Shown here piece after piece: positions 22,901 to 37,379 of a DNA stretch of 38,540 bases; within the stretch, counting starts at the first letter, position 1, and each line of letters starts with the position of its first letter. The translations under genes and the position numbers were made by a program. The stretch lies in IMG/VR virus record IMGVR_UViG_3300027506_000007, positions 1-38,540 of that record; one strand, given 5' to 3'. The notes under the pieces are model-generated. The model worked only from the letters and a program-made list of their open reading frames with translations. It ran no database searches and was not told the origin of the DNA. Origin of the DNA: a virus.

Positions 22901-23030
22901 CGGCTATCTCACCAAGGATACGTTGCTCAGCGGCCAGAAGGTCGGCGGCAGTTTGGCCGTACTTGCCGTAGGTGGCTTCACCGCCCTCGGCCATTCTAAG
23001 GAGCATTTCTTTAGCGGAATAATTAGGCAT
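16980..23030 (-). CDS. Giant polyvalent protein with zeta-like kinase domain
   Basis: A 2016-residue multidomain protein. Visible parts: an N-terminal repeat pair (GVSVDDALAAGV near 62 and GVTFQDMLAAGV near 150); a D-Y-L-R-L-N-E-D-V...H-Y-N-T-Y-G-R motif (347-388); low-complexity linkers; a helical middle (800-1050); a GNAT-like segment ending L-P-E-I-Y-E-A-V-G-F (1360-1369); a P-loop domain with Walker A GGGAASGKT (1550-1558), D1574 and the Y-V-D-R-P strand (1601-1605), resembling zeta-toxin kinases; and a C-terminal domain (about 1856-1973, including W-T-Q-V-G-M-N-P-Y-R-H-S-F-F-Y-D) typical of phage polyvalent proteins. Family knowledge: such proteins are thought to be injected with the DNA to counter host defences. 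Located between terminase and portal, so probably a virion protein. The start ATG has only a weak AGGG upstream. Confidence 0.75.
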   Translation of the reverse strand: MPNYSAKEMLLRMAEGGEATYGKYGQTAADLLAAEQRILGEIADDPSSWDVETAYNAILESGVSVDDALAAGVKQSTIDAIFTSPEPRFTPTYITPSSVESSFTAYSPYANMTQEEIAANAKQYVAGLAADGVIDEAEKREVQRIATERGVTFQDMLAAGVSPELLFTSPDFVEEEKKVIDVFPQTQTEYVPPTVYQPIDFDPGIYAPGEEALDREFRDSAPRTEVTEDVMGTQKLTGFDYTPAAKLLSATGSGFSFTPPSVTSRPRSLMNTNTLNRYTQGRSSQDLRQLTGGDQARYDQYSSLLNRTGSYGGGLSRSQLYALMRQQDSQNRTAPVSGAAPTGTIADYLRLNEDVGIDYARAKAAGEIPANTTPESFALNHYNTYGRAEIAAGTRTPFTLAQAQGGGQSYTSPAIGQFGEGDEESRQSNFTTQGYNTELLARDLGTAGGARIVPVFAEGGPVKKSEGFADNGPADSMTADELTAQLMAMDTEEAPAPAQEPRPTDQVQTESQAMLDRLLTTATRTPFTPEGERSIFGNAIAGIPDVVGGLYDYGKEVVTSPSPSAKMLTDIYGMGKAVKQSAKEDPAGFALDNFPVSQQVRAVNRAEDASGLANAARARGDFEEADRLEAAVTVEMISAFPFMKAKAPKVSRKGIITVADDLPAGDVVQTDSRKLLDNLTATTAIETPALEAPTPTGTATVPVPPAEIIPDAKGHSLPPILLTQGTGEKPIMPVVQSFTPQNKNKVLGEIDAVVRTNPNALASANNWLTAEAQAFGGDYLPAPPSQAIGYNQTPSALAAKLDKLTPQLKATVDEGFRYVNEIKNLYNSKIATPDLTGRMFLWGILSRGAGPVQQEAAFLDLVSKAEPYIAKSVNGEFTDADLTSWKQMVSESLPEGSPAKQVTMNANAAGTLLKALSEKSDNGQSALRTLHNDLADPKVSGPQFRRKFFALTNKPGIDNKVVSFIGLVSGKDDLLVMDRIQSRHLWDDGRYEGKNIYDGINKGGLSSILGGPRGLMVTEMLENGLKDSAKKAYEMIGRPQDGSLGRMHWETWLIEGNQGVSHSTLQSVRSGSPIGFGVTEGKPGTFSSGMTYRQAINGPVVEYPLSEGNVVRMTPERQKEFEMFVKAPKNGIVPKGFKVTESVSGPWYERPEVNRRKLDDAARQFENANADGSFRSGDVRPYAGGDTLSERRRKFLRAFRADQGRRAAATGVVQGVDNGRRTQETSGPYQRGTVEGYGGDGLLSFSPDSSALTQYQSAGLNLPVIRQLDAAANAPAYNVEMTNAMANHRLGSQVEIKSAEDLSGYNLFRTEAGSGFAIKPDGDIVAVFASPNEPKGGSFAMLQAAVQAGGTKLDAFDTYLPEIYEAVGFRPVARLPWNDEFAPPNWDKKAFAKYSKGEPDVVFFVHDPEYFGGAKDVPVVTDYDDAVRLQDEALGAVTPAAKGPEAQALSYDAEKIAKLPRVVNDPVAQRFNEQVGADPEAAIAQYRQLPDSKGGKVLNTDFVRELSPNYRNDRGLSQNVHDTSTALNQLMYQRALRDTMGQEGAWVFTGGGAASGKTAGLPDEMIDSYDLVVDGTLANFEKSSAQIDQALDSGKAVTVIYVDRPPEKAFPLLLNRANKMEKELGSGRTVPLDIFLGAHRDARESIKKIENKYKNDERVAIQVVNNHGAEGKQFLTTVDNVSKMDYNTSLPKITQALEDAYEQGKISESIYLATKGSAQPRPEGAQRQAPKNDTARNAGDEPKLEQGNQIVTEQQRQDWREANKGDFRQEQTPELAEAAEKLGRGELSISDYSKEVDRLRPITPLTEVPRISSFEDIASALDANKVAKGIIGLDTEIADGTMVGSRLDIPAYNSYNTWVVSVHEGAGTSGSSLGYGKIAVLDDVKFNSNAKSAFGVATGKKPKASFARMNGKWRNVDPEVAREQAEKFIKDPNWTQVGMNPYRHSFFYDKATGQPVDSAKEVIQIGPLVLARDVKTRPLESPEHALDPKKRKKGEPDYFKHGGSVERVYNDNRTYK
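19301..19552 (-). CDS. Nested out-of-frame ORF inside the polyvalent gene
   Basis: An 83-codon ORF lies in another frame on the same strand, within residues about 1160-1243 of the polyvalent protein. It starts with ATG 8 nt after AAGGAA. Its product looks protein-like: an acidic Pro/Ser linker, then W-F-R-E-S-I-M-D-D-V-L-K-K-H-P-D-L-T-R-E-E-L and the end DMEEMGF, a pattern I associate with small proteins near portal genes of polyvalent-protein phages. The main frame in the same stretch is Arg/Gly-rich and irregular. It could be a true overlapping gene, a relic of a fused gene, or chance. Confidence 0.4.
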   Translation of the reverse strand: MPQDNSKTLTPTAALDQAMLGLTRVGTPFLNEDESSSAPSEPIRAEEQPQQAWFRESIMDDVLKKHPDLTREELSRDMEEMGF

Positions 23031-26970: not shown

Positions 26971-27012
26971 GGGTGTGTGCAGTAACGTGGTGCAACGACG
27001 TACGGGCGTAGT

Positions 27013-27210
27013 TTACAGCGTCTCCCCGCTGCTTAATTTCTTGATCAATGCCTCGAGCTTGATCTGCTCCATTTCGCGAGCGTGGCCTTGCTTGAAGTCC
27101 CTGTGGTCGTCTGTGAGGCGCCAGTAAGGGTTCTTGGCGAACCACTGGTTGATTTCATCGAGGCGCTGCTGCGCGTCCTGTAAGTCCTGTGTGGCGTCTT
27201 GCTCATGCAT
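27013..27210 (-). CDS. Small charged protein of unknown function
   Basis: A 65-residue helical protein (DLQDAQQRLDEINQWFAKNP, then EMEQIKLEALIKKLSSGE). The ATG at 27210 is preceded by ACACAGGAGA, a variant of the ATACAGGAG leader used by other early genes. It is the last gene before the early terminator. No family recognised. Confidence 0.65.
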   Translation of the reverse strand: MHEQDATQDLQDAQQRLDEINQWFAKNPYWRLTDDHRDFKQGHAREMEQIKLEALIKKLSSGETL

Positions 27211-27400
27211 GGTGTGTCTCCTGTGTAGGTTTCCAAATTACGTTAAGTGTTCTGACTACTGCTTTGCATCTCTCGCAGAGGGTGTTGCCCTTGGTGGCCC
27301 TGATCCAGAGGTTGCAGGACTCGCAGGGTCTGCCGTTTTGTATCTTTTCTTTCTTCACGTTCAGGCTCCGAGGTTGGGGTGGGTTAAACGGCGAGGGCAT
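27203..27400 (-). CDS. Small zinc-ribbon protein
   Basis: A 65-residue protein. C-x2-C in GRPCESCNLW and C-x2-C in NTLCERCKAV form a zinc ribbon. An upstream in-frame extension to 27580 is out-of-frame sequence of the preceding gene and is rejected. The ATG at 27400 overlaps the previous stop by 17 nt; a GTG at 27358 preceded by GGAG is an alternative start giving 51 residues. Possibly nucleic-acid binding; function unknown. Confidence 0.65.
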   Translation of the reverse strand: MPSPFNPPQPRSLNVKKEKIQNGRPCESCNLWIRATKGNTLCERCKAVVRTLNVIWKPTQETHHA

Positions 27401-27833
27401 CGCTGCCCCACTCGTCGCCAGTGCGGAAAACACGGTTGTCCTTGGTGACCCAAGCGGGTGCGAGCTCAGGCTTCTCGCACAGGCCGAGCTCCGTCTGAAC
27501 CTTGGACCGTGAGCCGGTAGGAATGAACTTCCTGCCTGCGAGCTCTTGGTCGTCCTCATGGACCAACCAGACGGCGCCATACTGGCCGTTGATTACCTTG
27601 GCCTTGAGGCGCTGCTCGCCCTTGTAGAGGCCGTTAAACTCGCTCACGCCACCGGCACGGCAAATCTCTGCCTTGAGCTTGTAGTTAGAGGCCATGACAC
27701 TAGACGCCCACTGAGAGAGGTAGCCGTCGGTGTCGCAGTTTTGGAATGAGTCGTACTCACGCTTGAGGCAATCGGCAGCCTGCTGCTCAAACTTCTCGGC
27801 GCGGGCTTCGGTGAAATCAGTAAAGTAAGTCAT
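27384..27833 (-). CDS. Conserved phage protein of unknown function
   Basis: A 149-residue protein. The segment REYDSFQNCDTDGYLSQWAS (about 25-44) followed by KLKAEICRAGG and G-L-Y-K-G-E-Q-R-L-K-A-K-V-I-N-G-Q-Y-G-A-V-W recalls a conserved early protein of several phages, with no known activity. It starts at the cassette ATACAGGAGAACGACATG with a cUUCGg hairpin directly upstream. Confidence 0.7.
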   Translation of the reverse strand: MTYFTDFTEARAEKFEQQAADCLKREYDSFQNCDTDGYLSQWASSVMASNYKLKAEICRAGGVSEFNGLYKGEQRLKAKVINGQYGAVWLVHEDDQELAGRKFIPTGSRSKVQTELGLCEKPELAPAWVTKDNRVFRTGDEWGSDALAV

Positions 27834-27839
27834 GTCGTT

Positions 27840-27864
27840 CTCCTGTATCGGCCCCGAAGGGCCG
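27840..27864 (-). promoter_or_regulatory. Hairpin plus ATACAGGAG leader
   Basis: On the minus strand CGGCCC-TTCG-GGGCCG (27864-27849) is a 6-bp stem closed by a C(UUCG)G tetraloop, immediately followed by ATACAGGAG (27848-27840) and the ATG at 27833. It is one of ten ATACAGGAG leaders in the early region. Confidence 0.75.
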
Positions 27865-27874
27865 TGGTCCGTGA

Positions 27875-28090
27875 TTAGGGGTTACGCGCTTCTTCGATCA
27901 GGCCCTCGGGGATAAAGCCGTCGCCCTGCAGGCGTGCTTCAGGGAAGCGTGCGGCGATGATCTTGATGCCCTCGAGGTACTTAGGGTAAGTCGAGAAGGA
28001 CTCGGTAAAGAAGGACTCTGGAGCGCCTGAGCCGTAGAAGGAGGCGTCGAATGCTTCTGGGTCGGTGATGATGGCTACTGTGTATGACAT
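27875..28090 (-). CDS. Small early protein of unknown function
   Basis: A 71-residue protein (MSYTVAIITDPEAFDASFYG...). A longer ORF to 28153 is rejected because ATACAGGAG lies 7 nt before the ATG at 28090. The stretch LEGIKIIAARFPEARLQGDG looks like a compact alpha/beta fold. No family recognised. Confidence 0.65.
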   Translation of the reverse strand: MSYTVAIITDPEAFDASFYGSGAPESFFTESFSTYPKYLEGIKIIAARFPEARLQGDGFIPEGLIEEARNP

Positions 28091-28110
28091 GGTCGTTCTC
28101 CTGTATGGGG

Positions 28111-28449
28111 TTAGGATAGTGCAGCTTGATGTATTGCTCGGAGCTTGTTGCATCTGCCCCAGAACATTTTGCCGCCTGCCGTTATTCTAGAATCGTCCTT
28201 CCAGTGATCCTCGAGGTAATCGATATGAGCGCGGTTGTCCAAATCGCCAATAAACAGATTGAGAACATCCACGTCAACCAGTGTTGACGGTTTTACTTTT
28301 TTGGCTAGGACAGCATTCAGAAAATCGATGTATCGCTGACGCAGATTGCTCTCCTCGGATATGTTATCCACACACTCGATGAACTGATCGACTTCGGCAT
28401 AAGCGTAGTCGTTGAGAGAAAACGTAATTCCGAATTTAACTTGAGCCAT
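28111..28449 (-). CDS. Early protein of unknown function
   Basis: A 112-residue acidic protein (FIECVDNISEESNLRQRYID, then VLNLFIGDLDNRAHIDYLED). ATACAGGAG 6 nt upstream of the ATG, and a GGCCCC-TACG-GGGGCC hairpin (28486-28471) before it, mark the start. No family recognised. Confidence 0.65.
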   Translation of the reverse strand: MAQVKFGITFSLNDYAYAEVDQFIECVDNISEESNLRQRYIDFLNAVLAKKVKPSTLVDVDVLNLFIGDLDNRAHIDYLEDHWKDDSRITAGGKMFWGRCNKLRAIHQAALS

Positions 28450-28455
28450 GTCATT

Positions 28456-28486
28456 CTCCTGTATGGGGTTGGCCCCCGTAGGGGCC
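28456..28486 (-). promoter_or_regulatory. UACG-loop hairpin plus ATACAGGAG leader
   Basis: GGCCCC-TACG-GGGGCC (28486-28471) on the minus strand has a UNCG-class tetraloop and is followed after 6 nt by ATACAGGAG (28464-28456). The same 16-nt hairpin recurs exactly at 32967-32982. Confidence 0.72.
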
Positions 28487-28494
28487 GGTTGGGT

Positions 28495-28770
28495 TTAGAG
28501 GTAAGTTATTTTGATTGACTTAACAGGGGCAGCGTTGTCTCCCGTTCGGCTTGGAACGCCGGGCTTGGCGTTGATTGTAATGTACGAAGCCAAACCGCCA
28601 CCTTGGGCGTTTCCATTTACCTCGATGTCGTAAATGTTAGCGTAGGCTTTTGCCGCACTAGCCTTGCGGACGATCACTTCAGAACCGTCATTCATGATTG
28701 CTACCATCTTGGCTTTACCATTTTTAAGCGTAGTAGCGTTGATTGCTGCGATGTTGTTGAAGTCTGTCAT
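28495..28770 (-). CDS. Small early protein of unknown function
   Basis: A 91-residue protein (MTDFNNIAAINATTLKNGKA...). The ORF extends upstream to 28845, but ATACAGGAGAAAGACATG fixes the start at 28770. It has alternating strands (KMVAIMNDGSEVIVRKASAA, then SIKITYL at the end). The gene has its own candidate promoter and leader hairpin. Function unknown. Confidence 0.67.
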   Translation of the reverse strand: MTDFNNIAAINATTLKNGKAKMVAIMNDGSEVIVRKASAAKAYANIYDIEVNGNAQGGGLASYITINAKPGVPSRTGDNAAPVKSIKITYL

Positions 28771-28776
28771 GTCTTT

Positions 28777-28858
28777 CTCCTGTATCCGGTCAGGGCCATT
28801 CCCTGACAACAACTGCAGTCTAATGCATGTCATCAGGGGCGTCAACTACTTTTTACTA
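28777..28858 (-). promoter_or_regulatory. Promoter, hairpin and ATACAGGAG leader
   Basis: Reading the minus strand: AAAAAGTAGTTG (28854-28843) leads into TTGACG (28845-28840), then 17 nt, then TAGACT (28822-28817), a plausible sigma-70 promoter. Next is a 7-bp hairpin GTCAGGG/CCCTGAC with loop AATGG (28807-28789), 3 nt, and ATACAGGAG (28785-28777). The AAAAAGTAGTTG block is repeated exactly at three other early-gene leaders. Confidence 0.65.
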
Positions 28859-28865
28859 TTTATCC

Positions 28866-29594
28866 CTACTCTAGGTCCTCGCCTAGATATTCAAGTCCTT
28901 GGTCCACGTTCCCATCTTCAAAGCCCTCGACCTTGACCACCTCAGCAAGCCACTTGGCATTCTTTTTCAGGGCGTTGACTGAGATCGATTTGTAGCTGCC
29001 GTAGCGGTAACGCCGGACGCAGCTAGTATTGTGCCGCCATTGTCGCTCAGAGGCTCCTGTGTTGGGATCGTGAGCCACTATGACCATGTAGACAGCACCG
29101 GCAGGCATGCGGTAGGCGATCAGGGCGCGGTCCTCGATAGTCGCTAGGACTTCGCCATCTCTCCAAGCTTGGTTCGCCCAGAACTCTACCCGGCGACCGA
29201 CTTCAGGCCGTGCCTGCTTGGCCTGCTTCTCTTGACGGTATTTCTCGATGGCGGCTTTGGCCTGAGCTTGGTACTCAGTGTAACCAGTGCCATCTTGCCA
29301 GTCAGACCAAACGGCGTAGAAGTGATCGGCACCGTCCCTGTAGTCAGGTCCGTGGAGAGCGCGCTGTTTCTCGCTGATCTCGATTCGGCCTTGCTGTCGG
29401 TACAGGGGCTTGCTCACGTCCTCACCGAAGGCGAACAGGTGATATTTTTTGCTGTTGTAGTTGCATTGGATCTTGACGATTTGGACATTCTCGCCAAGCT
29501 CAGCGAAGAGCTTCTGTGCTTTCTTCTGGTAAGACTTAGGAGTTGAGTTCTCTGCACCGTGACGGTACTCAGCGTTGGCGATGATGTTTAGCAT
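28866..29594 (-). CDS. Early protein of unknown function
   Basis: A 242-residue protein, the largest unassigned early product. It starts at the ATACAGGAGAAAGACATG cassette (29594); the longer frame to 29636 only translates the leader. Features: a basic N-terminal helix (SYQKKAQKLFAELGE), a strand segment VQIVKIQCNYNSKKYHLFAF, a charged central helix (about 130-150), and R-V-E-F-W-A-N-Q-A-W-R-D-G-E-V (about 160-174), which resembles a small beta-barrel. No family recognised. Confidence 0.68.
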   Translation of the reverse strand: MLNIIANAEYRHGAENSTPKSYQKKAQKLFAELGENVQIVKIQCNYNSKKYHLFAFGEDVSKPLYRQQGRIEISEKQRALHGPDYRDGADHFYAVWSDWQDGTGYTEYQAQAKAAIEKYRQEKQAKQARPEVGRRVEFWANQAWRDGEVLATIEDRALIAYRMPAGAVYMVIVAHDPNTGASERQWRHNTSCVRRYRYGSYKSISVNALKKNAKWLAEVVKVEGFEDGNVDQGLEYLGEDLE

Positions 29595-29600
29595 GTCTTT

Positions 29601-29631
29601 CTCCTGTATCCGGCCGGGGCCACCCCCCGAC
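29601..29631 (-). promoter_or_regulatory. Hairpin plus ATACAGGAG leader
   Basis: GUCGGGG-GGUGG-CCCCGGC on the minus strand (29631-29613, one G-U pair) is followed by 3 nt and ATACAGGAG (29609-29601). The stem differs from its relatives but the loop ends UGG as in the other three class I hairpins. Confidence 0.65.
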
Positions 29632-29733
29632 AACAACTACAGCTTAGTTGATCTAATCCTAGAAAACAATACTTTCGACCACTTTGTTTTACTTATTTAT
29701 ATTCTAATCAATTCAAGGACTTAGAGGCTAAGT

Positions 29734-29828
29734 ACAAAAACATCTGCACTTTTTTTCATCCCCGGACAAAAACATGTGCACTTTTCTGCGCTACTCCCGT
29801 CTGGTTACGTCTGGTTACGTCTGGTCCC
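29734..29828. repeat. Direct and tandem repeats in intergenic gap
   Basis: ACAAAAACATCTGCACTTTT (29734-29753) recurs with one change at 29766-29785. It is followed by three 10-nt tandem units CGTCTGGTTA, CGTCTGGTTA, CGTCTGGTCC (29799-29828), which contain two GGTTACGTC iterons. The gap 29637-29831 otherwise shows no gene. It may be a regulatory region or secondary origin. Confidence 0.6.
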
Positions 29829-29831
29829 GTC

Positions 29832-30266
29832 CTACTGCCGTCCGACATAAGGTCCGTGGTCCTCGGCGCCTGCACCCTCTCGATAGAACAGGTGATCGCC
29901 TATGACGGCCGTAGGACGCATTGTAAGGGCCCAGTCAGGGCGAACGTAGTAGGCATGATAATGCGTGGCGTAACCCGTAACGTCCTTCACAACGCCGCTG
30001 AGGACGCCTGAGGCGATCCACCGCGCTACGGTGTAGGCGCGCTCGTCTTGAGGTTTATCGGACTGGCCGTCGCAGTAGAACGAGAACGCGCAGCGGTTGC
30101 GGACCTCTCCGCCGTCGGTGACGACGCCGCACACGGTATCAGGGAAGCGTGAGTCGTAGACTCTCTCGAGGACGACCTGTGCGACGGCGACCTGCCCCTG
30201 CAGGTCTTGGTTGCGGGCTTCGTGGTAAATGGTCAGTGCTAGGCAGGCTAGGGCTGAGGTAAACAT
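29832..30266 (-). CDS. SleB-type cell wall hydrolase (endolysin)
   Basis: A 144-residue protein matching the Hydrolase_2/SleB family: LALTIYHEARNQDLQGQVAV (10-29) with the probable catalytic E16, R-C-A-F-S-F-Y-C-D-G (58-67) and G-Y-A-T-H-Y-H-A-Y-Y-V (98-108). The family cleaves peptidoglycan glycan strands, so this is the likely endolysin. The hydrophobic first 12 residues could act as a weak export signal. It lies among early genes rather than beside a recognisable holin, and overlaps the preceding 52-codon gene in TGATG. Confidence 0.85.
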   Translation of the reverse strand: MFTSALACLALTIYHEARNQDLQGQVAVAQVVLERVYDSRFPDTVCGVVTDGGEVRNRCAFSFYCDGQSDKPQDERAYTVARWIASGVLSGVVKDVTGYATHYHAYYVRPDWALTMRPTAVIGDHLFYREGAGAEDHGPYVGRQ

Positions 30267-30424
30267 CAGCGGTGCTCCATGGTGAGATTGATTTCGTCGA
30301 TGAGCTGCTCAGCAACTACCACCGCTTCACGTGCCAGTTGATCGGTAGAGCGCTTCGATCTGCCGAGCAGCGCGTGCATCATTACCGTTGAGATCAACGC
30401 TAGGATTGCTTTTTCGTCGTCCAT
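30266..30424 (-). CDS. Small 52-residue protein before endolysin
   Basis: The ATG at 30424 is preceded by CTGGAGAAAATAA. The product starts MDDEKAILALISTVMMHALL and ends with a helix LAREAVVVAEQLIDEI, closely resembling LARDAVEIAKLVKDEI in the protein at 30980-31174. The stop overlaps the endolysin ATG (TGATG), so the two are coupled. A holin cannot be excluded, but the hydrophobic part is short. It overlaps the C-terminal codons of the HTH gene. Confidence 0.6.
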   Translation of the reverse strand: MDDEKAILALISTVMMHALLGRSKRSTDQLAREAVVVAEQLIDEINLTMEHR

Positions 30425-30572
30425 TTATTTTCTCCAGATAACCCGGTCTATTAAACCAGTCGTTCAATGTGTGTGTTGACGGCCCGAGCTTGCGGCTGAT
30501 TAATTTTTTAGGAACGCCTTCATCACGAAGTCGGAAGGCCTCCTGTACTACTTCCCACGGCCACGCTTTCAT
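30327..30572 (-). CDS. Small helix-turn-helix protein
   Basis: An 81-residue protein. EVVQEAFRLRDEGVPKKLIS followed by RKLGPSTHTLNDWFNRPGY (about 7-45) is a helix-turn-helix like those of transposase/resolvase-type DNA readers and small phage regulators. The ATG at 30572 overlaps the nuclease stop (ATGA); the GTG at 30581 is less likely. The C-terminal 30 codons overlap the 52-residue gene in another frame. Probably a DNA-binding regulator; target unknown. Confidence 0.62.
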   Translation of the reverse strand: MKAWPWEVVQEAFRLRDEGVPKKLISRKLGPSTHTLNDWFNRPGYLEKINGRRKSNPSVDLNGNDARAARQIEALYRSTGT

Positions 30573-30976
30573 ATGAGCCACTTGTCCTTGAGTATCTGAA
30601 AGTTAGCTTGATGCTGCGCTTGGATTTCATTTTTGTTTTGCCCAGTGTAAGGCACTGCCAAATGCTCGGTGACTAGCGCAGCGTTTATCGAGGTGTCGTC
30701 GGTCAGGTAGATTGTTCCGAGGTACCGTCCGAACTTTCCTTTCTCTTTTGTCTGGAGGCGATAGGTTCCTCCGACGTGCAGTGCGTCCTCGACAAATTCC
30801 TTCGCCAAGAACCCGGCAGCTTTTTCTTCAGCATCGAGTGTGCGGCACTCTGGAGTATCAACACCGTACAAACGAATGCGCTCACCGCAACGCCAAGTAT
30901 CAAACCCAAGGTCAATATCAACATCGACAGTATCTCCATCGACAACACGGACAATTTTGCATTGGTAGTCATACAT
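30569..30976 (-). CDS. Staphylococcal-nuclease-like (thermonuclease) enzyme
   Basis: A 135-residue SNase-fold protein. VVDGDTVDVDIDLGFD (11-26), R35 and E43 in RIRLYGVDTPE (33-43) and R84 in KGKFGRYLG (79-87) match the catalytic Arg, Glu, Arg and calcium-binding Asp residues of the family. There is no signal peptide, so it should act in the cytoplasm, possibly degrading host DNA or RNA during infection. The complete active site suggests it is functional. Confidence 0.85.
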   Translation of the reverse strand: MYDYQCKIVRVVDGDTVDVDIDLGFDTWRCGERIRLYGVDTPECRTLDAEEKAAGFLAKEFVEDALHVGGTYRLQTKEKGKFGRYLGTIYLTDDTSINAALVTEHLAVPYTGQNKNEIQAQHQANFQILKDKWLI

Positions 30977-30979
30977 GAT

Positions 30980-31174
30980 TTATTCCCAACCTTCAGGTTT
31001 ATCTCCACCTAACACCCATGGGTCTGGAATAGATTTTTCTATCTCGTCTTTGACGAGCTTAGCTATTTCAACAGCATCACGAGCCAACTCATACTTGTTC
31101 GTGTGCTTGCCTAATTCTACAAGCGCCTGAGCGATCATAAACACCTGCTGTTCGTATTGCTGCCTGTGGCTCAT
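30980..31174 (-). CDS. Small helical protein
   Basis: A 64-residue protein with two helices; the second (YELARDAVEIAKLVKDEIEK) is similar to the end of the 52-residue protein at 30266-30424. AAAGGAGAAGACGC precedes the ATG, and it overlaps the preceding gene by 4 nt. Similar small proteins are common in phages; function unknown. Confidence 0.68.
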   Translation of the reverse strand: MSHRQQYEQQVFMIAQALVELGKHTNKYELARDAVEIAKLVKDEIEKSIPDPWVLGGDKPEGWE

Positions 31175-31428
31175 GCGTCTTCTCCTTTCTTGTGAGCAGG
31201 GCGATGCGCCCCGATGTCTCGGTTGGTTGGATCGGTTAACGAGTCTGGTCGCATGAGGCGATCAAACTTTCTCTTGGGAGCGTTAGGGTCAACCTCGCTA
31301 AATGCGCGTGGCGGACAAACGGTTATCACTCCGCCGCTGTCCTTGTATTCCTGTACCTGACGTTCTAATTCTGCACGTAAGAGAGCGCGTTCAGATAAAG
31401 TAAGAACATCCATTCGGGTCGTGGTCAT
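31171..31428 (-). CDS. Small early protein, possible regulator
   Basis: An 85-residue protein. LSERALLRAELERQVQEYKD then SGGVITVCPPRAF (about 10-43) resembles small phage proteins with a helix and a G-G-x-I-T-V-C-P-P turn. The C-terminus is basic. ATGA overlap with the preceding gene. A regulatory role is a guess from size and context only. Confidence 0.62.
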   Translation of the reverse strand: MTTTRMDVLTLSERALLRAELERQVQEYKDSGGVITVCPPRAFSEVDPNAPKRKFDRLMRPDSLTDPTNRDIGAHRPAHKKGEDA

Positions 31429-31619
31429 TCATCCTGCTCCTTCGGGCTGAGCTCTAGCACGGTGCTTTCTGGCGACAGGGTTGACCCGTGAGCCGTGGTC
31501 CCTGACACACGAATCGTGAGGGTGTCGACGTTGGCCTTCTTGCCGAAGATGCGGTCGAAGTTGTCGTCAAACTTTTCTTTGCTCACGCTCAATGGGCGTG
31601 GTCTGCTTCCCTTGCTCAT
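31425..31619 (-). CDS. Small phage protein, MSKGS-RPRP family
   Basis: A 64-residue protein. The opening MSKGSRPRPLSVSKEKFDDN and F-D-R-I-F-G-K-K are typical of a small conserved phage family of unknown function. TAATG and ATGA junctions couple it to both neighbours. Confidence 0.7.
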   Translation of the reverse strand: MSKGSRPRPLSVSKEKFDDNFDRIFGKKANVDTLTIRVSGTTAHGSTLSPESTVLELSPKEQDE

Positions 31620-31846
31620 TATTTTTCTCCGTGGCGTTTGGTTAAACCATTAACGGGGTCAGTGTTTCCTGCGCCCATGTTGTAAGAATCCACCCGAGCT
31701 TTATGCAGATAGTTGACAAGATTGTCGACTGTACCGCTAGGCTCTTCGATGGCCGTTTTTAAAAGTTTAATCACTTCCACTTTATCGACAACTTTCATCA
31801 ACTCGAGGTGACTGTCTACAATTTCCTGCACGTCAACGTCTAACAT
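31619..31846 (-). CDS. Small early protein of unknown function
   Basis: A 75-residue protein: a helical N-terminal half (VQEIVDSHLELMKVVDKVEV) and a segment T-V-D-N-L-V-N-Y-L-H-K-A-R-V-D. TAATG junctions on both sides. No family recognised. Confidence 0.62.
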   Translation of the reverse strand: MLDVDVQEIVDSHLELMKVVDKVEVIKLLKTAIEEPSGTVDNLVNYLHKARVDSYNMGAGNTDPVNGLTKRHGEK

Positions 31847-32058
31847 TACTCAGCCCTCCAGATTCGGAGGCCGTTGTCCTCACGTCGAGCGACATACTTT
31901 TGGTTGTGGCGCCGACCGGTTGACATAGCAGCGCGGTAAGCGCGCCCGTTTACTTCCTCGCCGTCGAAGTAGACTGACTCGCCTACTGACATCTCGAGGA
32001 AGGGGTACTTGCGAGCCCGTGAGGACTCGGGTAGTGGAACGCCTGTTTCAATTTTCAT
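31846..32058 (-). CDS. Small YPF-domain protein, paralogue of 26178 gene
   Basis: A 70-residue protein. KYPFLEMSVGESVYF, then a basic helix ending MSTGRRHNQKYVARR and G-L-R-I-W-R repeat the pattern of the protein at 26178-26423. A longer frame to 32184 is rejected: the ATG at 32058 has AAGGA 7 nt upstream, and the upstream part is another gene in a different frame. Nucleic-acid binding is plausible; function unproven. Confidence 0.66.
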   Translation of the reverse strand: MKIETGVPLPESSRARKYPFLEMSVGESVYFDGEEVNGRAYRAAMSTGRRHNQKYVARREDNGLRIWRAE

Positions 32059-32068
32059 ACGTGGGTCC

Positions 32069-32224
32069 TTAGTTGCATTGGATATCAGGGTTGTACGGGG
32101 GCCATGTTCCGTCGGCCACGAACTCACAGTAGCGATCCTGCTGCTGCTGTGCTTCTTCAAAATCGGATGTACCGGCGAGGCCAAGGGCCGCGACGAGCGC
32201 GGCCAGTGCTAGTAGGATTCTCAT
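32069..32224 (-). CDS. Small exported protein of 51 residues
   Basis: The ATG at 32224 follows GGAGG and overlaps the previous stop (TAATG). The product has a signal-peptide-like start, MRILLALAALVAALGLAG, then a Gln-rich linker and the segment RYCEFVADGTWPPYNPDIQC with two Cys. This Y-C-x-x-x...W-P-x-Y-N-P pattern is recurrent in small phage proteins. It may be a periplasmic or membrane-attached protein, perhaps a lysis or superinfection factor; this is inference. Confidence 0.7.
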   Translation of the reverse strand: MRILLALAALVAALGLAGTSDFEEAQQQQDRYCEFVADGTWPPYNPDIQCN

Positions 32225-32661
32225 TACGCTGCCTCCTGTGCGAGCTCGTAGCGATAAGCGAACTCAGAGAGGAGTTGATCTTTAATGCCGCGCACTAGGT
32301 GGTAGGCGTCAGACTGACGGTATTCTGGGTGCTCGCATGACTGATAGTCGAAGGAGTTGAGGACCTCTTTAATCTTAACGAGATCGTTGTAATCGTAGCG
32401 GGCCTTGGCTGCAAGTTTAACCTCGGCGAGGAACTCTTCGAGAGTGCCGCAGAGGAAGCCACCGGCAACGCCGTACTTAGGGTAGAGGGCCTCGAGAGAC
32501 TTGATGTTCTCCTTGGCAAGTATCGTGGCGATGTCTGCAGCAATCACGATGTCGATGTACTCTTTCTGATCGAGGTTAACGAAGTGACGTGGCGCGCCGG
32601 GCTTAAGAGCATACGCTGCAAGCAGGGCGAAATCTTTGGGATCACATAAATAGGCTGACAT
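32224..32661 (-). CDS. Conserved early phage protein of unknown function
   Basis: A 145-residue protein. The C-terminal LNSFDYQSCEHPEYRQSDAY and H-L-V-R-G-I-K-D-Q-L-L motif is characteristic of a conserved phage protein family without known activity. The rest is helical. It is driven by a good candidate promoter (TTGCGC, 16 nt, TAGTAT) and uses the ATACAGGAG leader. Confidence 0.7.
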   Translation of the reverse strand: MSAYLCDPKDFALLAAYALKPGAPRHFVNLDQKEYIDIVIAADIATILAKENIKSLEALYPKYGVAGGFLCGTLEEFLAEVKLAAKARYDYNDLVKIKEVLNSFDYQSCEHPEYRQSDAYHLVRGIKDQLLSEFAYRYELAQEAA

Positions 32662-32668
32662 TGTCTTT

Positions 32669-32742
32669 CTCCTGTATCGGTTAAATTAAACTACAAACGA
32701 ATACTAGCACACTGATCAGACAGCGCAACTACTTTTTCCTAC
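32669..32742 (-). promoter_or_regulatory. Promoter and ATACAGGAG leader
   Basis: On the minus strand AAAAAGTAGTTG (32737-32726) overlaps TTGCGC (32728-32723); 16 nt later is TAGTAT (32706-32701). ATACAGGAG is at 32677-32669. There is no clear hairpin here. The block overlaps the last codons of the preceding gene. Confidence 0.65.
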
Positions 32743-32949
32743 GGGGAAAGTGTACCCCATTTTCTCGATAAGCACGTCGCGAACGTGCCCGCGGTCGATG
32801 CTGTCAGCAGCGAAGTCGCTTAGGTTAATTCCGCTGAGGTAGTAACCGGTTGCGATGGCAACATCTAGGCGCGTAACGCCCATGTCATAGACGCCGCCGG
32901 GGCCGTAAAAAGTGCTAACGTAATCGATAAAGTCGATGAAATCTTGCAT
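32716..32949 (-). CDS. Small early protein of unknown function
   Basis: A 77-residue protein (MQDFIDFIDYVSTFYGPGGV...). The ATG at 32949 follows ATACAGGAG; the longer frame to 33036 reads through the leader. The last codons overlap the AAAAAGTAGTTG promoter block of the next gene, so the C-terminus may be a recent extension. No family recognised. Confidence 0.66.
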   Translation of the reverse strand: MQDFIDFIDYVSTFYGPGGVYDMGVTRLDVAIATGYYLSGINLSDFAADSIDRGHVRDVLIEKMGYTFPVGKSSCAV

Positions 32950-32955
32950 GGGATT

Positions 32956-32982
32956 CTCCTGTATGTGGCCCCCGTAGGGGCC
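32956..32982 (-). promoter_or_regulatory. UACG-loop hairpin plus ATACAGGAG leader
   Basis: The hairpin GGCCCC-TACG-GGGGCC (32982-32967) is identical to the one at 28486-28471 and is followed after 2 nt by ATACAGGAG (32964-32956). Confidence 0.72.
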
Positions 32983-32989
32983 GGTAAGT

Positions 32990-33250
32990 TTAAACGTAGT
33001 CCAGACACCACTCGTCTGGGTATTCTGAAAGTTCAATTCCTGCTTGGATCTGAGCGAGCTGATCCTCTTCGAGGACCGCCGGTGCTTTGCAGGGGCTAGG
33101 CTCAGCCTTGAATAGACCGCAGCCGTGCTGCTTGAAGAGAGCGGCAGCCTGCATGTAGCTCAGGCCTTCAGGGGCGCCGTAATCGGCAGGGTCATGCAGC
33201 ATGTCTTGGTCGTGAGGCTCGCCGCAATGTGGGCAGTAGATGTCAAACAT
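32990..33250 (-). CDS. Small zinc-knuckle protein
   Basis: An 86-residue protein. The start MFDIYCPHCGEPHDQDMLHD gives C6-x2-C9 and His residues; a second Cys pair may come from H-G-C-G-L (about 42-46). Family members with Y-C-P-H-C-G-E-P-H occur in other phages; function unknown. AAAGGAGAAAGATT precedes the ATG. Confidence 0.7.
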   Translation of the reverse strand: MFDIYCPHCGEPHDQDMLHDPADYGAPEGLSYMQAAALFKQHGCGLFKAEPSPCKAPAVLEEDQLAQIQAGIELSEYPDEWCLDYV

Positions 33251-33264
33251 AATCTTTCTCCTTT

Positions 33265-33552
33265 CTAGTTAGAGTAAATTCTGTGGGCCTTGATCGACCA
33301 CTTCTGAACTACCGGCTGACCGCTCTCGTCTTCGTCGACGACGATATAGGCCACGGTCTTTTTGACTAGCGCGTAGCGCCATCCTGAATCGTTTTGTTCA
33401 TCTACAGGAGCATCAGAGACCCAGACGCGGTGAGGGTATCCGGCGAAGGTGTCCTCGCCGTGGAGGTCGTACTCGAAAAAGTTACCGTACTGCTTCTCGA
33501 CAAACGATCCGCCTTCGCGGATGGGGTAAACTGCTGAAGGGGCAAATGCCAT
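33265..33552 (-). CDS. Small early protein of unknown function
   Basis: A 95-residue beta-rich protein (FFEYDLHGEDTFAGYPHRVW, then YALVKKTVAYIVVDEDESGQ, ending W-S-I-K-A-H-R). The ATG at 33552 follows ATACAGGAG by 8 nt; the longer frame to 33603 is leader. No family recognised. Confidence 0.67.
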   Translation of the reverse strand: MAFAPSAVYPIREGGSFVEKQYGNFFEYDLHGEDTFAGYPHRVWVSDAPVDEQNDSGWRYALVKKTVAYIVVDEDESGQPVVQKWSIKAHRIYSN

Positions 33553-33560
33553 GTGACTGT

Positions 33561-33635
33561 CTCCTGTATGATGTCGGCCAATCCGACAAAGAGATGGTCT
33601 CATAATGCGAGACCACCTGCAACTACTTTTTACTA
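33561..33635 (-). promoter_or_regulatory. Promoter-like block, hairpin and ATACAGGAG leader
   Basis: AAAAAGTAGTTG (33631-33620) lies directly after the TAG stop of the preceding gene and leads to TTGCAG. A GGTCTC...GAGACC inverted repeat (33596-33614) follows, then hairpin GTCGG-ATTGG-CCGAC (33587-33573), 3 nt, and ATACAGGAG (33569-33561). The -10 is unclear in this copy. Confidence 0.6.
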
Positions 33636-33956
33636 CTCAGTGAAACACAAGTCGAATGAGTAGTAAGGCTCGGTGTACCATCCGCCCTTGAAGTAATTAT
33701 GTAACTGCATTGAAGTGCCGATGGCCCACTCATAAGGTCCCGCTTCCCAACAGACCCGCCAATTTTTGCCGTAGCCACGGGCTTGGCTTTCCTCTGGGGT
33801 ATCGATGAAGATTTCGATATCCGGGTTTTGCCCGTACACCTCTTTCGCAAATTTGCACAGGGCTTTATGAAAGGCCTTGGCGGCACCTGCCTTGGTCTTG
33901 TACTTCTTAGGATCGAAGTTAATTTCCATGGAACCTACTTCAGTTTGAATTTTCAT
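33633..33956 (-). CDS. Early protein of unknown function
   Basis: A 107-residue protein (K-T-K-A-G-A-A-K-A-F-H-K-A helix, about 20-32, then IEIFIDTPEESQARGYGKNW and V-C-W-E-A-G-P-Y-E-W-A). ATACAGGAG overlaps the previous stop codon. Similar proteins are found in other phages; no activity known. Confidence 0.67.
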   Translation of the reverse strand: MKIQTEVGSMEINFDPKKYKTKAGAAKAFHKALCKFAKEVYGQNPDIEIFIDTPEESQARGYGKNWRVCWEAGPYEWAIGTSMQLHNYFKGGWYTEPYYSFDLCFTE

Positions 33957-33970
33957 GTCTTTCTCCTGTA

Positions 33971-34147
33971 TTAAAGAATCGCGGGGTTTTGAACGACAGG
34001 CTCGCCTGCTTTCTCGGCGAGGTAAACAGAGACCTCATATTGCTTTTTGGCCTTTAGCTCAGCGGCAGCCTTGCACTGCGCGGCATAGGAGGTTTCAGCG
34101 TAGACTTCAATCTGCTTACCCTTGTAAAGCGCTATGTAACCGTTCAT
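33971..34147 (-). CDS. Small phage protein, MNGYIALYKGK family
   Basis: A 58-residue protein (MNGYIALYKGKQIEVYAETS, then Y-A-A-Q-C-K-A-A-A). Proteins beginning this way recur in many phages without assigned function. The ATG at 34147 follows ATACAGGAG; the upstream in-frame extension is leader sequence. Confidence 0.73.
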   Translation of the reverse strand: MNGYIALYKGKQIEVYAETSYAAQCKAAAELKAKKQYEVSVYLAEKAGEPVVQNPAIL

Positions 34148-34153
34148 ATCTTT

Positions 34154-34230
34154 CTCCTGTATGGTGTCGGCCAACCCGACAACTGAATCGTCTCACGTTT
34201 TTAATACTACCGTCAACTACTTTTTTCTAC
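34154..34230 (-). promoter_or_regulatory. Promoter-like block, hairpin and ATACAGGAG leader
   Basis: AAAAAGTAGTTG (34225-34214) overlaps TTGACG (34216-34211). Hairpin GTCGG-GTTGG-CCGAC (34180-34166) follows, then 3 nt and ATACAGGAG (34162-34154). The -10 is not clear; TGAGAC lies about 17 nt after TTGACG. Confidence 0.6.
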
Positions 34231-34247
34231 CCAATAAAATCAACAAG

Positions 34248-34502
34248 TTAGTGGACCGTGGGCCCTTCTTCTATCTCATCGTCGTAGTGTTTTCTGTCCA
34301 CGTCGTAGTGCATTTCCATCATTACAAGGAAAGCTTCTTTCTTGATCCCTGATCCTTGGGCCGTGTCGCACAGCATATTAGTCAAGACGCACATGAGCTC
34401 ACTGGGGCCGATGCCGAGAGTGTCTTCCATCTCTTCGACCACGGCCCACATCTCGTCGTACATCTCCACCACTAATCTGCTGAACTCTTCAATAGTCTTC
34501 AA
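34248..34502 (-). CDS. Small acidic protein of unknown function
   Basis: An 84-residue acidic protein with LKTIEEFSRLVVEMYDEMWA at the start and two Cys (VLTNMLCDTA). The proposed start is TTG at 34502 after GGGAGAGG; the ATG at 34592 would overlap the zinc-ribbon gene by about 100 nt. Start uncertain, function unknown. Confidence 0.5.
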   Translation of the reverse strand: MKTIEEFSRLVVEMYDEMWAVVEEMEDTLGIGPSELMCVLTNMLCDTAQGSGIKKEAFLVMMEMHYDVDRKHYDDEIEEGPTVH

Positions 34503-34668
34503 CGATCCTCTCCCGTAAGATGGCGTCTTCCCAATGCCTGCAGTTAAAACAATACCAACCTCGTCGCACGGGCACCAATTCTTTCTGAGCATTCTCGTCG
34601 TGGCCTATTATCTGGCCCATCGTCTCGCCGCAGGGGCAGGGCTTCTTGCTTAAATCCTCAGTCGTCAT
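34489..34668 (-). CDS. Small zinc-ribbon protein of 59 residues
   Basis: The ATG at 34668 overlaps the end of the preceding gene by 11 nt. The product has P-C-P-C-G-E (C11, C13) and W-Y-C-F-N-C-R-H-W (C40, C43), so C-x-C plus C-x2-C could bind zinc. Zinc-ribbon proteins of this size are common in phage early regions; function unknown. Confidence 0.65.
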   Translation of the reverse strand: MTTEDLSKKPCPCGETMGQIIGHDENAQKELVPVRRGWYCFNCRHWEDAILRERIVEDY

Positions 34669-34852
34669 AGTTCATCGGCTCCGTCTTGTACGTGCCAACG
34701 ATGCCGTGCTTGGCCTCGATGAGCCTCGCGAAGTCCTTAGCGAACAGCGGTGCAGGCTTAACGTGCTTGGCCGCATCCATGTAGGCGAACATAATCTCGT
34801 CATGGTCCAGTGGCTTCTGGCCTAACAGCTTAGCCTTGAGTCGCTTAAACAT
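34658..34852 (-). CDS. Small early protein of unknown function
   Basis: A 64-residue protein (MFKRLKAKLLGQKPLDHDEI, then M-F-A-Y-M-D-A-A-K-H-V). The ATG at 34852 follows AAGGAGACGCGCA. A longer frame to 34942 overlaps another small gene and is rejected. No family recognised. Confidence 0.6.
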   Translation of the reverse strand: MFKRLKAKLLGQKPLDHDEIMFAYMDAAKHVKPAPLFAKDFARLIEAKHGIVGTYKTEPMNYDD

Positions 34853-34991
34853 TGCGCGTCTCCTTTTTTTCAATCTCCTGCTTAGCTCGGCCTGCAACTT
34901 CCTCTCGGCTGTACCCAAAAAAAGTGTGCTTTGTCGTGCCAACCGTGACCATGGATTTGTACCATTTAGGCCCTATTTTATAGACTACCAT
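34845..34991 (-). CDS. Small 48-residue protein
   Basis: The ATG at 34991 follows ACAGGAGAATGAA, a variant of the common leader. The product reads MVVYKIGPKWYKSMVTVGTT then F-F-G-Y-S-R-E-E-V-A-G-R-A-K-Q-E-I: a short beta sheet followed by a helix, which looks like a compact domain. Overlaps the next gene by 8 nt. Function unknown. Confidence 0.6.
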   Translation of the reverse strand: MVVYKIGPKWYKSMVTVGTTKHTFFGYSREEVAGRAKQEIEKKETRNV

Positions 34992-34992
34992 T

Positions 34993-35211
34993 TCATTCTC
35001 CTGTCTGATCGGTTTCGTCTTCAAGTCTAAATACCTCCGCCTCGTCTAGCATTGCCAGAACGTCGACCTTTCTTTTGCGCCCAGAGGGCCCTCTTACTGT
35101 GATGTTTACCGCAACAATATCGACTTGTTCCGGTAGCCCAAATTCAGCAGGTAGGATCTCGTAAACTACCTCAACCGGCAAGGTCAAGGAGCTGCTTACT
35201 GTATTTTTCAT
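34993..35211 (-). CDS. Small protein of unknown function
   Basis: A 72-residue beta-rich protein (TLPVEVVYEILPAEFGLPEQ, V-D-I-V-A-V-N-I-T-V, then a basic R-K-R-K). The ATG at 35211 follows CAGGAATACAAAA and overlaps the preceding gene by 41 nt. No family recognised. Confidence 0.58.
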   Translation of the reverse strand: MKNTVSSSLTLPVEVVYEILPAEFGLPEQVDIVAVNITVRGPSGRKRKVDVLAMLDEAEVFRLEDETDQTGE

Positions 35212-35485
35212 TTTTGTATTCCTGCTCGAGTGCATGGGCTTTGACGGGGTCACTGTCTCTCAACAGCTCAATGAAATGGCGCGTGATCAACGAGCCTGCG
35301 ATCTTGCTCAGGGGCGCCTCGTAGAACTCTCCTAACTCGCGCAGCATCGCGTAATGCTCTGCCCGCACGCATAGGTTAGCCCACGGAGTTTCTCGCTTAG
35401 ACGGCGAGGGAGGGGGCACGTAACCCTTTGGTCTTCTCTTTCGATTCTTGTGGACACGTCGTCGCACGTACACACCTGTTGGCAT
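35171..35485 (-). CDS. Ribbon-helix-helix-like DNA-binding protein
   Basis: A 104-residue protein. The first 30 residues are Arg/Lys/Pro-rich (GVYVRRRVHKNRKRRPKGYV), like an AT-hook or DNA-contact tail. Residues about 37-75 (N-L-C-V-R-A-E-H-Y-A-M-L-R-E-L-G-E-F, then KIAGSLITRHFIELL) fit a ribbon-helix-helix fold. AAAGGAGAAGACT precedes the ATG. Probably a regulator of the early block; target unknown. It follows the polymerase gene after a 55-nt gap. Confidence 0.62.
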   Translation of the reverse strand: MPTGVYVRRRVHKNRKRRPKGYVPPPSPSKRETPWANLCVRAEHYAMLRELGEFYEAPLSKIAGSLITRHFIELLRDSDPVKAHALEQEYKNEKYSKQLLDLAG

Positions 35486-35540
35486 AGTCTTCTCCTTTCT
35501 GGTTTGGTATATGAAGCTTACAGTATTCTAATATACGCTG

Positions 35541-37379
35541 CTACTTTGATTCGCCCCAATTGGGCCCAACCTCAACGTCTACCTTGCTTGGCACGGCGAG
35601 CTCTACCGCTTCGCGCATGATCTTAGCGGCCCCCTCAGCCTCTTCACGGCTTTTTACAGAGAGGGCTATCTCATCATGCACCTGCAGCATGATGTTGAAC
35701 CCTGCCTTGTGTAGGGCAAGCATGGCGCTCTTACACTGGTCCGCTGCGCTTCCTTGGATTAGTTTGTTGGTACCCTTGTAGGTCATGGCGCGTTTGATTC
35801 GCGTGCCGTACTTTGCAGCGGCCTCTTCGTAGGGCAGCGCTTTGTTGATTCCCCACGCCATTGGTTCCCACAAAGGAAAGCGACACTTGCGGCCGAGCAA
35901 TGTTCTGATCGATCCGCCGGAGGCAGGGTACTCAATGCGCTTCTGCACCGCGTGGATTGTTGACTTCAGGAACGGGACCTTGGCGTGGAACGTCTGAATC
36001 AACTCCTTCGCTTCGTCGTCGTGCATGTCGAGCTCTACCGCGAGCTTCTTAACGCCCATGCCGTAGATCAAACCGAGCCCGATAGTTTTGGCCTGCTTAC
36101 GATCAATGCCTGCAAGGTCGGCGACCATTTGGTGGAAGTCAGTGCCGGGGTCCTCTTGATAAGCCTCAGCCATCTTACCGGCGCCATCCAGTTTCAACAG
36201 GCTCGCATAGTGAACCAGTAGGCGGGGCTCCTGACTCGAGAAGTCGTTGGCCGCCCAGAGCTCGCCTTCCTCAGGCAAGAACAAACCTCGGACCATTGGA
36301 CCGATAACTGGGTGGCGTGCAGGCACTTGCTGCAGGTTCGGTTGGTTCATGGACAGTCGGCCGGTGACCGTGCCGCCGCCCTCACCGCGCAACTGGTTAA
36401 TGTGCGAATGGATTCGCCCGGTGGCCTCGCTTGCATCGAGGTACGGCTGCAGGAAAGTGTTGTGCGTCTTGTTTATCTCGCGCACCTCAACGATGGCCTT
36501 GGCAATCGGGTGCTCGCATCCCTCGAGGAAGGACTTAGTAAAACTTGGCGCGCCCTTGTCTGTCTTCGGGTAGCCAATGTTCAGCTTATCAAAGGCCTTG
36601 GCAATGCTTGCCGCTGCCCACATGTCGACAGGGACGCCCGCCTCCTTGCGGATAAAGGCAATCATCTTTTTCTCTTTCTTCTTGAGCTCTTCGGTGAGCT
36701 CTATTGCTTTTTCCCTATCAAAGCGAATGCCTTTATGCGTCATACCCACTAGCACAGGCAGTATCTCAGTTTCCAATTGGAAGATGGACTCGACCTCTTC
36801 TTGCCTTAGCAGGGTCTCGAGGTGATGCCAGAGCTTCAGCGTAAGTGCCGCATCCTGTTCGCCGTAGGCGCCAACAAAATGCGCCGGAAGTTTCCAGAGC
36901 TCTTTCTTTGGGTGCACGCCAAAATCTGCAGCCGCCTTCTTGAGCTGCTCCTCTGACTTAATCTCTTTGAGCATATCGAAACCCAGAGAGTTTAGTGCGT
37001 AGCTGTATCGGTTCTCGTCGACTAGGCCTGCAGCAATCATCGTGTCGATAATTGTTCCTTGAACCTCGAACCCTGACGCCAGTAGCCAACCCAAGTCGTA
37101 TGCTGCGTTATGCATCACCTTCGGGCAGGGCAGTTTTAGAATGTCCGTGATCCATGCCTCGACCATTCTTTTATCGAGGTTGCCGCCACCGCCATGTGCG
37201 ATAGGGTAGTAGCCGCACCACCCGTCTACTGCGACGGCGTAGCCGACGATAAACCCGTCGTTGCGTGGCCAACCGGGCCCGAACTTCTCCATGTTTGGAT
37301 CGCAGGTCTCGAGGTCGATGGCAATCTCTTTTGCTTCCGACAGGTCAGGAAAATGTTGTGGTGGGGTCCATTCGCTCAA
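35541..37379 (-). CDS. polA: DNA polymerase, family A, with 3'-5' exonuclease
   Basis: A 612-residue replicative polymerase. Exonuclease domain: D22 and E24 (AIDLET), N91/D95 (HNAAYDLGWL) and Y172/D176 (YGEQDAAL). Polymerase domain: T-G-R-L-S (339-343), motif A with D379 (ANDFSSQEPR), motif B R427...K431...Y439 (RKQAKTIGLGLIYG) and motif C H568-D569-E570 (QVHDEI). The residue equivalent to E. coli Phe762 is Leu435, and motif A reads SSQEPR rather than the usual SQIELR. The start is TTG, overlapping the helicase stop (TTGA), because the next ATG would remove the exonuclease motif. Confidence 0.93.
   Translation of the reverse strand: MSEWTPPQHFPDLSEAKEIAIDLETCDPNMEKFGPGWPRNDGFIVGYAVAVDGWCGYYPIAHGGGGNLDKRMVEAWITDILKLPCPKVMHNAAYDLGWLLASGFEVQGTIIDTMIAAGLVDENRYSYALNSLGFDMLKEIKSEEQLKKAAADFGVHPKKELWKLPAHFVGAYGEQDAALTLKLWHHLETLLRQEEVESIFQLETEILPVLVGMTHKGIRFDREKAIELTEELKKKEKKMIAFIRKEAGVPVDMWAAASIAKAFDKLNIGYPKTDKGAPSFTKSFLEGCEHPIAKAIVEVREINKTHNTFLQPYLDASEATGRIHSHINQLRGEGGGTVTGRLSMNQPNLQQVPARHPVIGPMVRGLFLPEEGELWAANDFSSQEPRLLVHYASLLKLDGAGKMAEAYQEDPGTDFHQMVADLAGIDRKQAKTIGLGLIYGMGVKKLAVELDMHDDEAKELIQTFHAKVPFLKSTIHAVQKRIEYPASGGSIRTLLGRKCRFPLWEPMAWGINKALPYEEAAAKYGTRIKRAMTYKGTNKLIQGSAADQCKSAMLALHKAGFNIMLQVHDEIALSVKSREEAEGAAKIMREAVELAVPSKVDVEVGPNWGESK

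Follow-up and report, generated by a model that had tools for sequence, protein, structure and literature searches.

A conserved hairpin with an RNUGG loop at the predicted 5' ends of small-gene messages in a group of uncultured phages

Four minus-strand leaders in a 38.5-kb IMG/VR virus record of a tailed phage (the whole 38,540-nt stretch that was analyzed is called the window) carry a hairpin with the five-base loop RNTGG (RNUGG in the RNA), followed in each case by 3 nt and the Shine-Dalgarno box ATACAGGAG. Relatives carry the hairpin in the corresponding leaders, with strict conservation over saturated divergence, and these comparisons support it well as a functional, conserved leader element, as the first-pass annotation had proposed. 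We put at about one half the probability that it is a modular 5'-terminal stem-loop leader that protects mRNA in the manner of Escherichia coli ompA. The hairpin itself, its recurrence, its sequence conservation, the exchange of its two forms before the same gene, and its fixed place relative to the predicted promoter and the Shine-Dalgarno box were all computed from the collected sequences.

Hairpins and predicted promoters in the window

The first-pass annotation had placed four hairpins 3 nt before ATACAGGAG, and both their positions (Table 1) and this spacing were confirmed in the sequence. In 1000 dinucleotide-preserving shuffles of positions 27001-35600, scored for stems of at least 5 bp with the hairpin end 5-8 nt before AGGAG, hairpins with an NNTGG loop occurred 0.003 times on average and at most once, against 4 observed, and hairpins with any loop of 3-6 nt occurred 1.05 times on average, against 6 observed. 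The recurrence of the four hairpins is far beyond chance. Their loop had been described as five nucleotides ending in UGG, which holds in the window and can be narrowed to RNTGG, the first base being always A or G. Pairing is kept in all four stems, as had been claimed; however, the stems are less different than that account implied, the two 5-bp stems being identical and the four differing overall by two extra pairs, one A-U/G-C exchange and one U-G pair. The constant GUC start likewise holds in the window, and in the 5-bp class it coincides with the predicted start of transcription. No T-tract lies downstream of any of the four stems, in agreement with the earlier statement that they are not terminators, and an intrinsic terminator was rejected for want of a U-tract past the stem; the consensus scan did not list them either. 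Sites for ATACAGGAG at 33971, 32677 and 28106 in the window lack an RNTGG hairpin.

Table 1. Features of the hairpin-bearing leaders and of related leaders, in window coordinates
Feature	Position	Strand	Details
Predicted promoter	34187..34223	(-)	AAAGTAGTTG motif; -35 TTGACG 34216-34211, 18 nt, weak -10 GACGAT 34192-34187
5-bp hairpin	34166..34180	(-)	GTCGG-GTTGG-CCGAC; predicted +1 at 34180
Shine-Dalgarno box	34154..34162	(-)	ATACAGGAG
Gene after 34180 hairpin	33971..34147	(-)	58 aa; weak match to phrog_19202 (unknown function)
Predicted promoter	33594..33629	(-)	-35 TTGCAG 33622-33617, 17 nt, weak -10 GACCAT 33599-33594
5-bp hairpin	33573..33587	(-)	GTCGG-ATTGG-CCGAC; predicted +1 at 33587
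Shine-Dalgarno box	33561..33569	(-)	ATACAGGAG
Gene after 33587 hairpin	33265..33552	(-)	95 aa; phrog_23785 (unknown function)
Internal hairpin	32967..32982	(-)	GC-rich, UNCG tetraloop, directly before ATACAGGAG
Contrast leader	32669..32735	(-)	same promoter motif and ATACAGGAG, no hairpin
Predicted promoter	29641..29669	(-)	TTGTTT, 17 nt, TAAGCT; conserved in L059, L063, L066
7-bp hairpin	29613..29631	(-)	GTCGGGG-GGTGG-CCCCGGC, one U-G pair; predicted +1 at 29634
Shine-Dalgarno box	29601..29609	(-)	ATACAGGAG
Gene after 29631 hairpin	28866..29594	(-)	242 aa; no family
Predicted promoter	28817..28852	(-)	-35 TTGACG 28845-28840, 17 nt, -10 TAGACT 28822-28817
7-bp hairpin	28789..28807	(-)	GTCAGGG-AATGG-CCCTGAC; predicted +1 at 28810
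Shine-Dalgarno box	28777..28785	(-)	ATACAGGAG
Gene after 28807 hairpin	28495..28770	(-)	91 aa; no family
Internal hairpin	28471..28486	(-)	GC-rich, UNCG tetraloop, directly before ATACAGGAG
Internal hairpin	27849..27864	(-)	GC-rich, UNCG tetraloop, directly before ATACAGGAG

To place the hairpin relative to transcription, we gathered 62 candidate leaders by the promoter motif alone, without reference to hairpins. The 5' arm of the 5-bp form starts 6-7 nt past the -10 hexamer, where +1 is expected, and that of the 7-bp form starts 9 nt past the -10, at +4 of a transcript beginning GUUGUC. With start sites inferred from this comparison, the hairpin is predicted to begin at or within 3 nt of +1. 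The motif AAAGTAGTTG occurs exactly four times in the window, always before such leaders; a plain consensus promoter scan gave no excess over chance. A G at the predicted +1 is frequent in hairpin-less leaders too, and two relatives without the hairpin have unstructured leaders with mostly GTTGG at the predicted +1, then AGAAAGGAG. A perfect dyad, GGTCTC-N7-GAGACC, lies between the predicted -35 and -10 elements at 33614-33596 (-) and recurs with a variable spacer in nine related contigs; it looks like a repressor operator common to one promoter class.

Calling the downstream genes early is an assumption. An 85-aa protein encoded at 31171-31428 (-) has a sub-cutoff match to the SutA RNA polymerase-binding domain (PF20661, E 3e-6) and is possibly a phage RNA polymerase-binding protein, a hint of a Pseudomonas-like host. 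Between the terminase and portal genes, a 2016-aa protein (16980-23030, minus strand) contains a zeta-toxin-type domain (PF06414, residues ~1568-1666); at the corresponding place the nearest named relative, the metagenome-assembled lake phage DSL-LC04 (OR003939), whose terminase is 77% identical, has a protein annotated as PcfJ-like. Adjoining ORFs at 1141-3464 (-) resemble 2OG-Fe(II) oxygenase-type proteins by eye and by an oxygenase annotation in DSL-LC04.

Two forms of the element and their conservation

Leaders were collected through homologues of the downstream genes and of the DNA polymerase, together with pattern scans. The hairpin was found in 39 leader sequences, some near-identical, on ~22 related IMG/VR contigs; the sample consists of contigs, often fragments, of one phage group, and leaders that share a cassette do not count as independent. 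The genes that follow belong to more than 20 unrelated small-gene protein groups. Two forms were recognized, GTCGG-RTTGG-CCGAC with 5 bp and GTCRGGG-RNTGG-CCCYGAC with 7 bp, which have in common the outer GTC/GAC, the inner GG/CC and the loop RNTGG. All 25 leaders of the 5-bp form share an invariant stem and vary at one loop base (A or G). The 14 leaders of the 7-bp form are more variable (GTCAGGG/CCCTGAC, GTCGGGG/CCCCGAC and GTCGGGG/CCCCGGC); one of them has an A-C mismatch, and in three the outer stem is disturbed. RNTGG is the loop of 38 of the 39 leaders (the exception, AGGGG, is in L061), and the GG/CC closing pairs are kept in all 39 across both stem lengths; one decayed copy was seen, in L136. 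The forms interchange before two genes: an identical 65-aa protein follows the 7-bp form in L059 and the 5-bp form in L063, and a 91-aa protein follows the 7-bp form in the window and the 5-bp form in L066. Throughout the collected leaders, AGGAG lies 6-8 nt past the stem, so that the ribosome-binding site is outside the hairpin.

Because MAFFT left the two forms unaligned on structure, only the 7-bp form went into the covariance model; over 41 sources this model ranked the 5-bp form next (E 0.01-0.06), with lower scores for 5-bp copies that have AAGGAG-type boxes. A permissive pattern gave at least 119 matches in bacterial genomes, with pairing in 1 of the matches listed, which is consistent with chance, and a broader search of viral sequences yielded no new 7-bp stem among the matches listed. 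Among these listed matches, the element is seen only in this phage group.

Differences between the stems had been read as a covariation signature, which did not survive formal pair counting: one pair in the 7-bp form changes on both sides, one pair shows a U-G change, the covariation score was reached by 18 of 500 shuffles, and the 5-bp stems are invariant. With a single two-sided pair and one U-G change, covariation cannot carry the argument. The strong evidence is instead primary-sequence conservation, which is kept over saturated divergence. The element is unchanged between the window and the relative L151, whose aligned genes are 60% identical in amino acids and 39% identical at third codon positions. 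Mean identity among leaders is 97% for the 5-bp element and 51% for the 45 nt upstream of it. This last contrast also bears on neutral spread, in which a promoter-leader cassette recombining between phages would be uniform through exchange and not selection. Distinct leaders do have promoter, hairpin and Shine-Dalgarno motifs in common, and the same leader has been acquired by different genes; yet the upstream sequence of the 5-bp class has diverged and Shine-Dalgarno variants are tolerated next to an unchanged hairpin, and we regard such an origin as very improbable.

Protection of the 5' end and competing readings

With a hairpin predicted to begin no more than 3 nt from +1, the element is best explained, among the functions that the first-pass annotation had offered, as a 5'-end stabilizer. 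Under this reading, a host-type promoter (AAAGTAGTTGAC-like -35, ~17 nt, -10) would start transcription at G, and transcript bases 1-15 in the 5-bp form, or +4 to +22 in the 7-bp form, would fold into a stable hairpin, while the strong Shine-Dalgarno box 6-8 nt past the stem would leave the ribosome room. The buried 5' end would hinder removal of the 5' triphosphate by RppH and 5'-end-dependent entry of RNase E, from which we infer a longer life of the mRNA. Protection of mRNA by 5' secondary structure is established in E. coli (review PMC3997798). The placement seen in leaders gathered by promoter motif, the exchange of the two forms before the same gene, the unrelated hairpins that other leaders carry in or near this position and the tetraloop hairpins before internal ATACAGGAG boxes all favor this reading.

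Several observations count against protection. In a large parallel assay, protection by hairpins came only from the shortening of single-stranded RNA (PMC11541907). Hairpin-less promoters occur once in the window and many times in relatives, the 5-bp class has poor -10 boxes, and predicted Shine-Dalgarno accessibility, which reflects wider folding, is uneven between leaders. The three free 5' bases of the 7-bp form would make a weaker block, and the sequence, as compared here, is held much more strictly than stability would require. A loop fixed as RNUGG and a 5-bp stem without variation suggest that something probably reads the sequence in addition.

Other hairpins in the same phages bear on this point. 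Across these phages, GC-rich internal hairpins within operons (Table 1 gives those of the window) have the loops UUCG, UACG, CACG, GAGA and GAAA, and relatives switch to GAGA or GAAA; this exchange of hyperstable tetraloops is a mark of selection for stability. The RNUGG 5' hairpins never have a UNCG or GNRA loop, and because such tetraloops are never used there, the RNUGG loop would be kept for a further reason. In L004 and L006, some leaders have GCTGGGG-ACGG-TCCCAGC or a similar hairpin at or near the position of the RNUGG hairpin, and the 95-aa gene follows the RNUGG hairpin in L004 and the ACGG hairpin in L006. Two other relatives (L106 and L118, minus strand) have, before a 68-aa gene, a 7-bp hairpin with a triloop, GTCATCT-RAG-AGATGGC, running from the predicted +1 and ending ~15 nt before the ATACAGGAG box.

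Such a reader of the sequence could be the whole function, with the hairpin as an RNA operator that unites the small genes in a regulon: a protein of the phage or the host would recognize the RNUGG loop and G-C closing pairs and change the translation or decay of all hairpin-bearing messages together. The near-constant loop and wholly constant closing pairs across two stem lengths, the swapping of the forms before the same gene and the ranking of the 5-bp form by a model of the 7-bp form all agree with this, as do the T4/RB69 gp43 operators, which keep the hairpin top and loop with a different stem length (PMC3014915). However, no binder was found in the records searched, and in a few leaders a hairpin with another loop takes the place of RNUGG at or near the 5' end. 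A protein-binding operator is therefore a possible but tentative second choice, and its autoregulatory version, governed by one product, is unlikely because more than 20 unrelated genes lie downstream. A CsrA/RsmA target was rejected, since the loop has no GGA (UGG is followed by C) and no CsrA gene turned up in the seven records searched. Base pairing between the loop and CCAACC of internal leaders was inconsistent across loop variants, and a pseudoknot between loop UGG and a downstream CCA was also rejected, its connecting loop being too short and ATC leaders having no partner.

The element could also act as DNA, TGTCGG-N5-CCGACA being a palindromic repressor or activator site at the transcript start and the hairpin a by-product. 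The 5-bp element is indeed an invariant 15-17-bp dyad over the predicted +1, and some of the same promoters bear the second perfect dyad described above. Yet the asymmetric spacer is conserved like the arms, the GTC/GAC arms are 9 bp apart in one form and 13 bp in the other, so that one dimer could hardly read both, and no copy occurs away from ribosome-binding sites within this phage group; for these reasons we hold a DNA operator less likely than an RNA operator, and improbable overall. The distance to the Shine-Dalgarno box is also kept, and the stem tolerates one U-G pair and one A-C mismatch. An N4-type hairpin promoter, with a 3-nt loop upstream of the start and a virion RNA polymerase, was rejected, the loop here having 5 nt and lying downstream of sigma-70-like elements; a search with PF00940 came back empty, as did its control.

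If protection of the 5' end is right, these phages would equip the messages of their orphan small genes from a leader cassette, used again and again, that shields the 5' end and perhaps also marks all of these messages for one regulator. Studies of post-transcriptional control in uncultured dsDNA phages would then have a clear point of entry, and expression work would have a natural 5' leader of defined sequence to test. We found no paper on the element in a search of open-access literature.

Comparison with known systems

Rfam returned nothing at the gathering cut-off in the window or in nine relatives. The Mu-gpT-DE RNA (RF03012) has a consensus end ACAGGAG...ACAUG of similar Shine-Dalgarno flavor, but its score was 23.5 bits against a cut-off of 49, and it pairs the Shine-Dalgarno region, which the phage element does not. 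This identity was rejected, the match resting mainly on the shared Shine-Dalgarno box and weak matches also occurring in 8 of 14 control genomes. In DSL-LC04 one leader has a promoter, ACAGGAG and an imperfect hairpin at or near the predicted 5' end, GTCGGC-GCTTT-GCCGTC; its loop is GCUUU, however, and the RNUGG hairpin was not found there.

Like lambda boxB, the element has a short stem and a 5-nt loop near early promoters, and it recurs in several operons of one phage, as would suit a boxB- or put-like antitermination signal that acts on RNA polymerase as soon as it enters an early operon. However, its RNUGG loop is not a GNRA-like pentaloop, which led us to reject a lambda-type boxB, no boxA precedes it, and it would sit at the extreme 5' end of the message, no more than 3 nt from the predicted start. 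The operons are short, an N-like protein was not identified, and antitermination is the least probable of the readings weighed here. The T4/RB69 gene 43 operator is likewise a leader hairpin with a conserved loop, an identical top and a variable stem length; in T4 it extends into the ribosome-binding site of a single gene and is bound by the product of that gene, whereas the present element precedes many genes and does not govern a single binder's own gene. Closest to our preferred reading are the 5' stem-loops of E. coli ompA and papA, in which a hairpin at or a few bases from the 5' end is followed by a separate ribosome-binding site; unlike those, the phage element recurs with nearly the same sequence and loop ahead of more than 20 unrelated genes.
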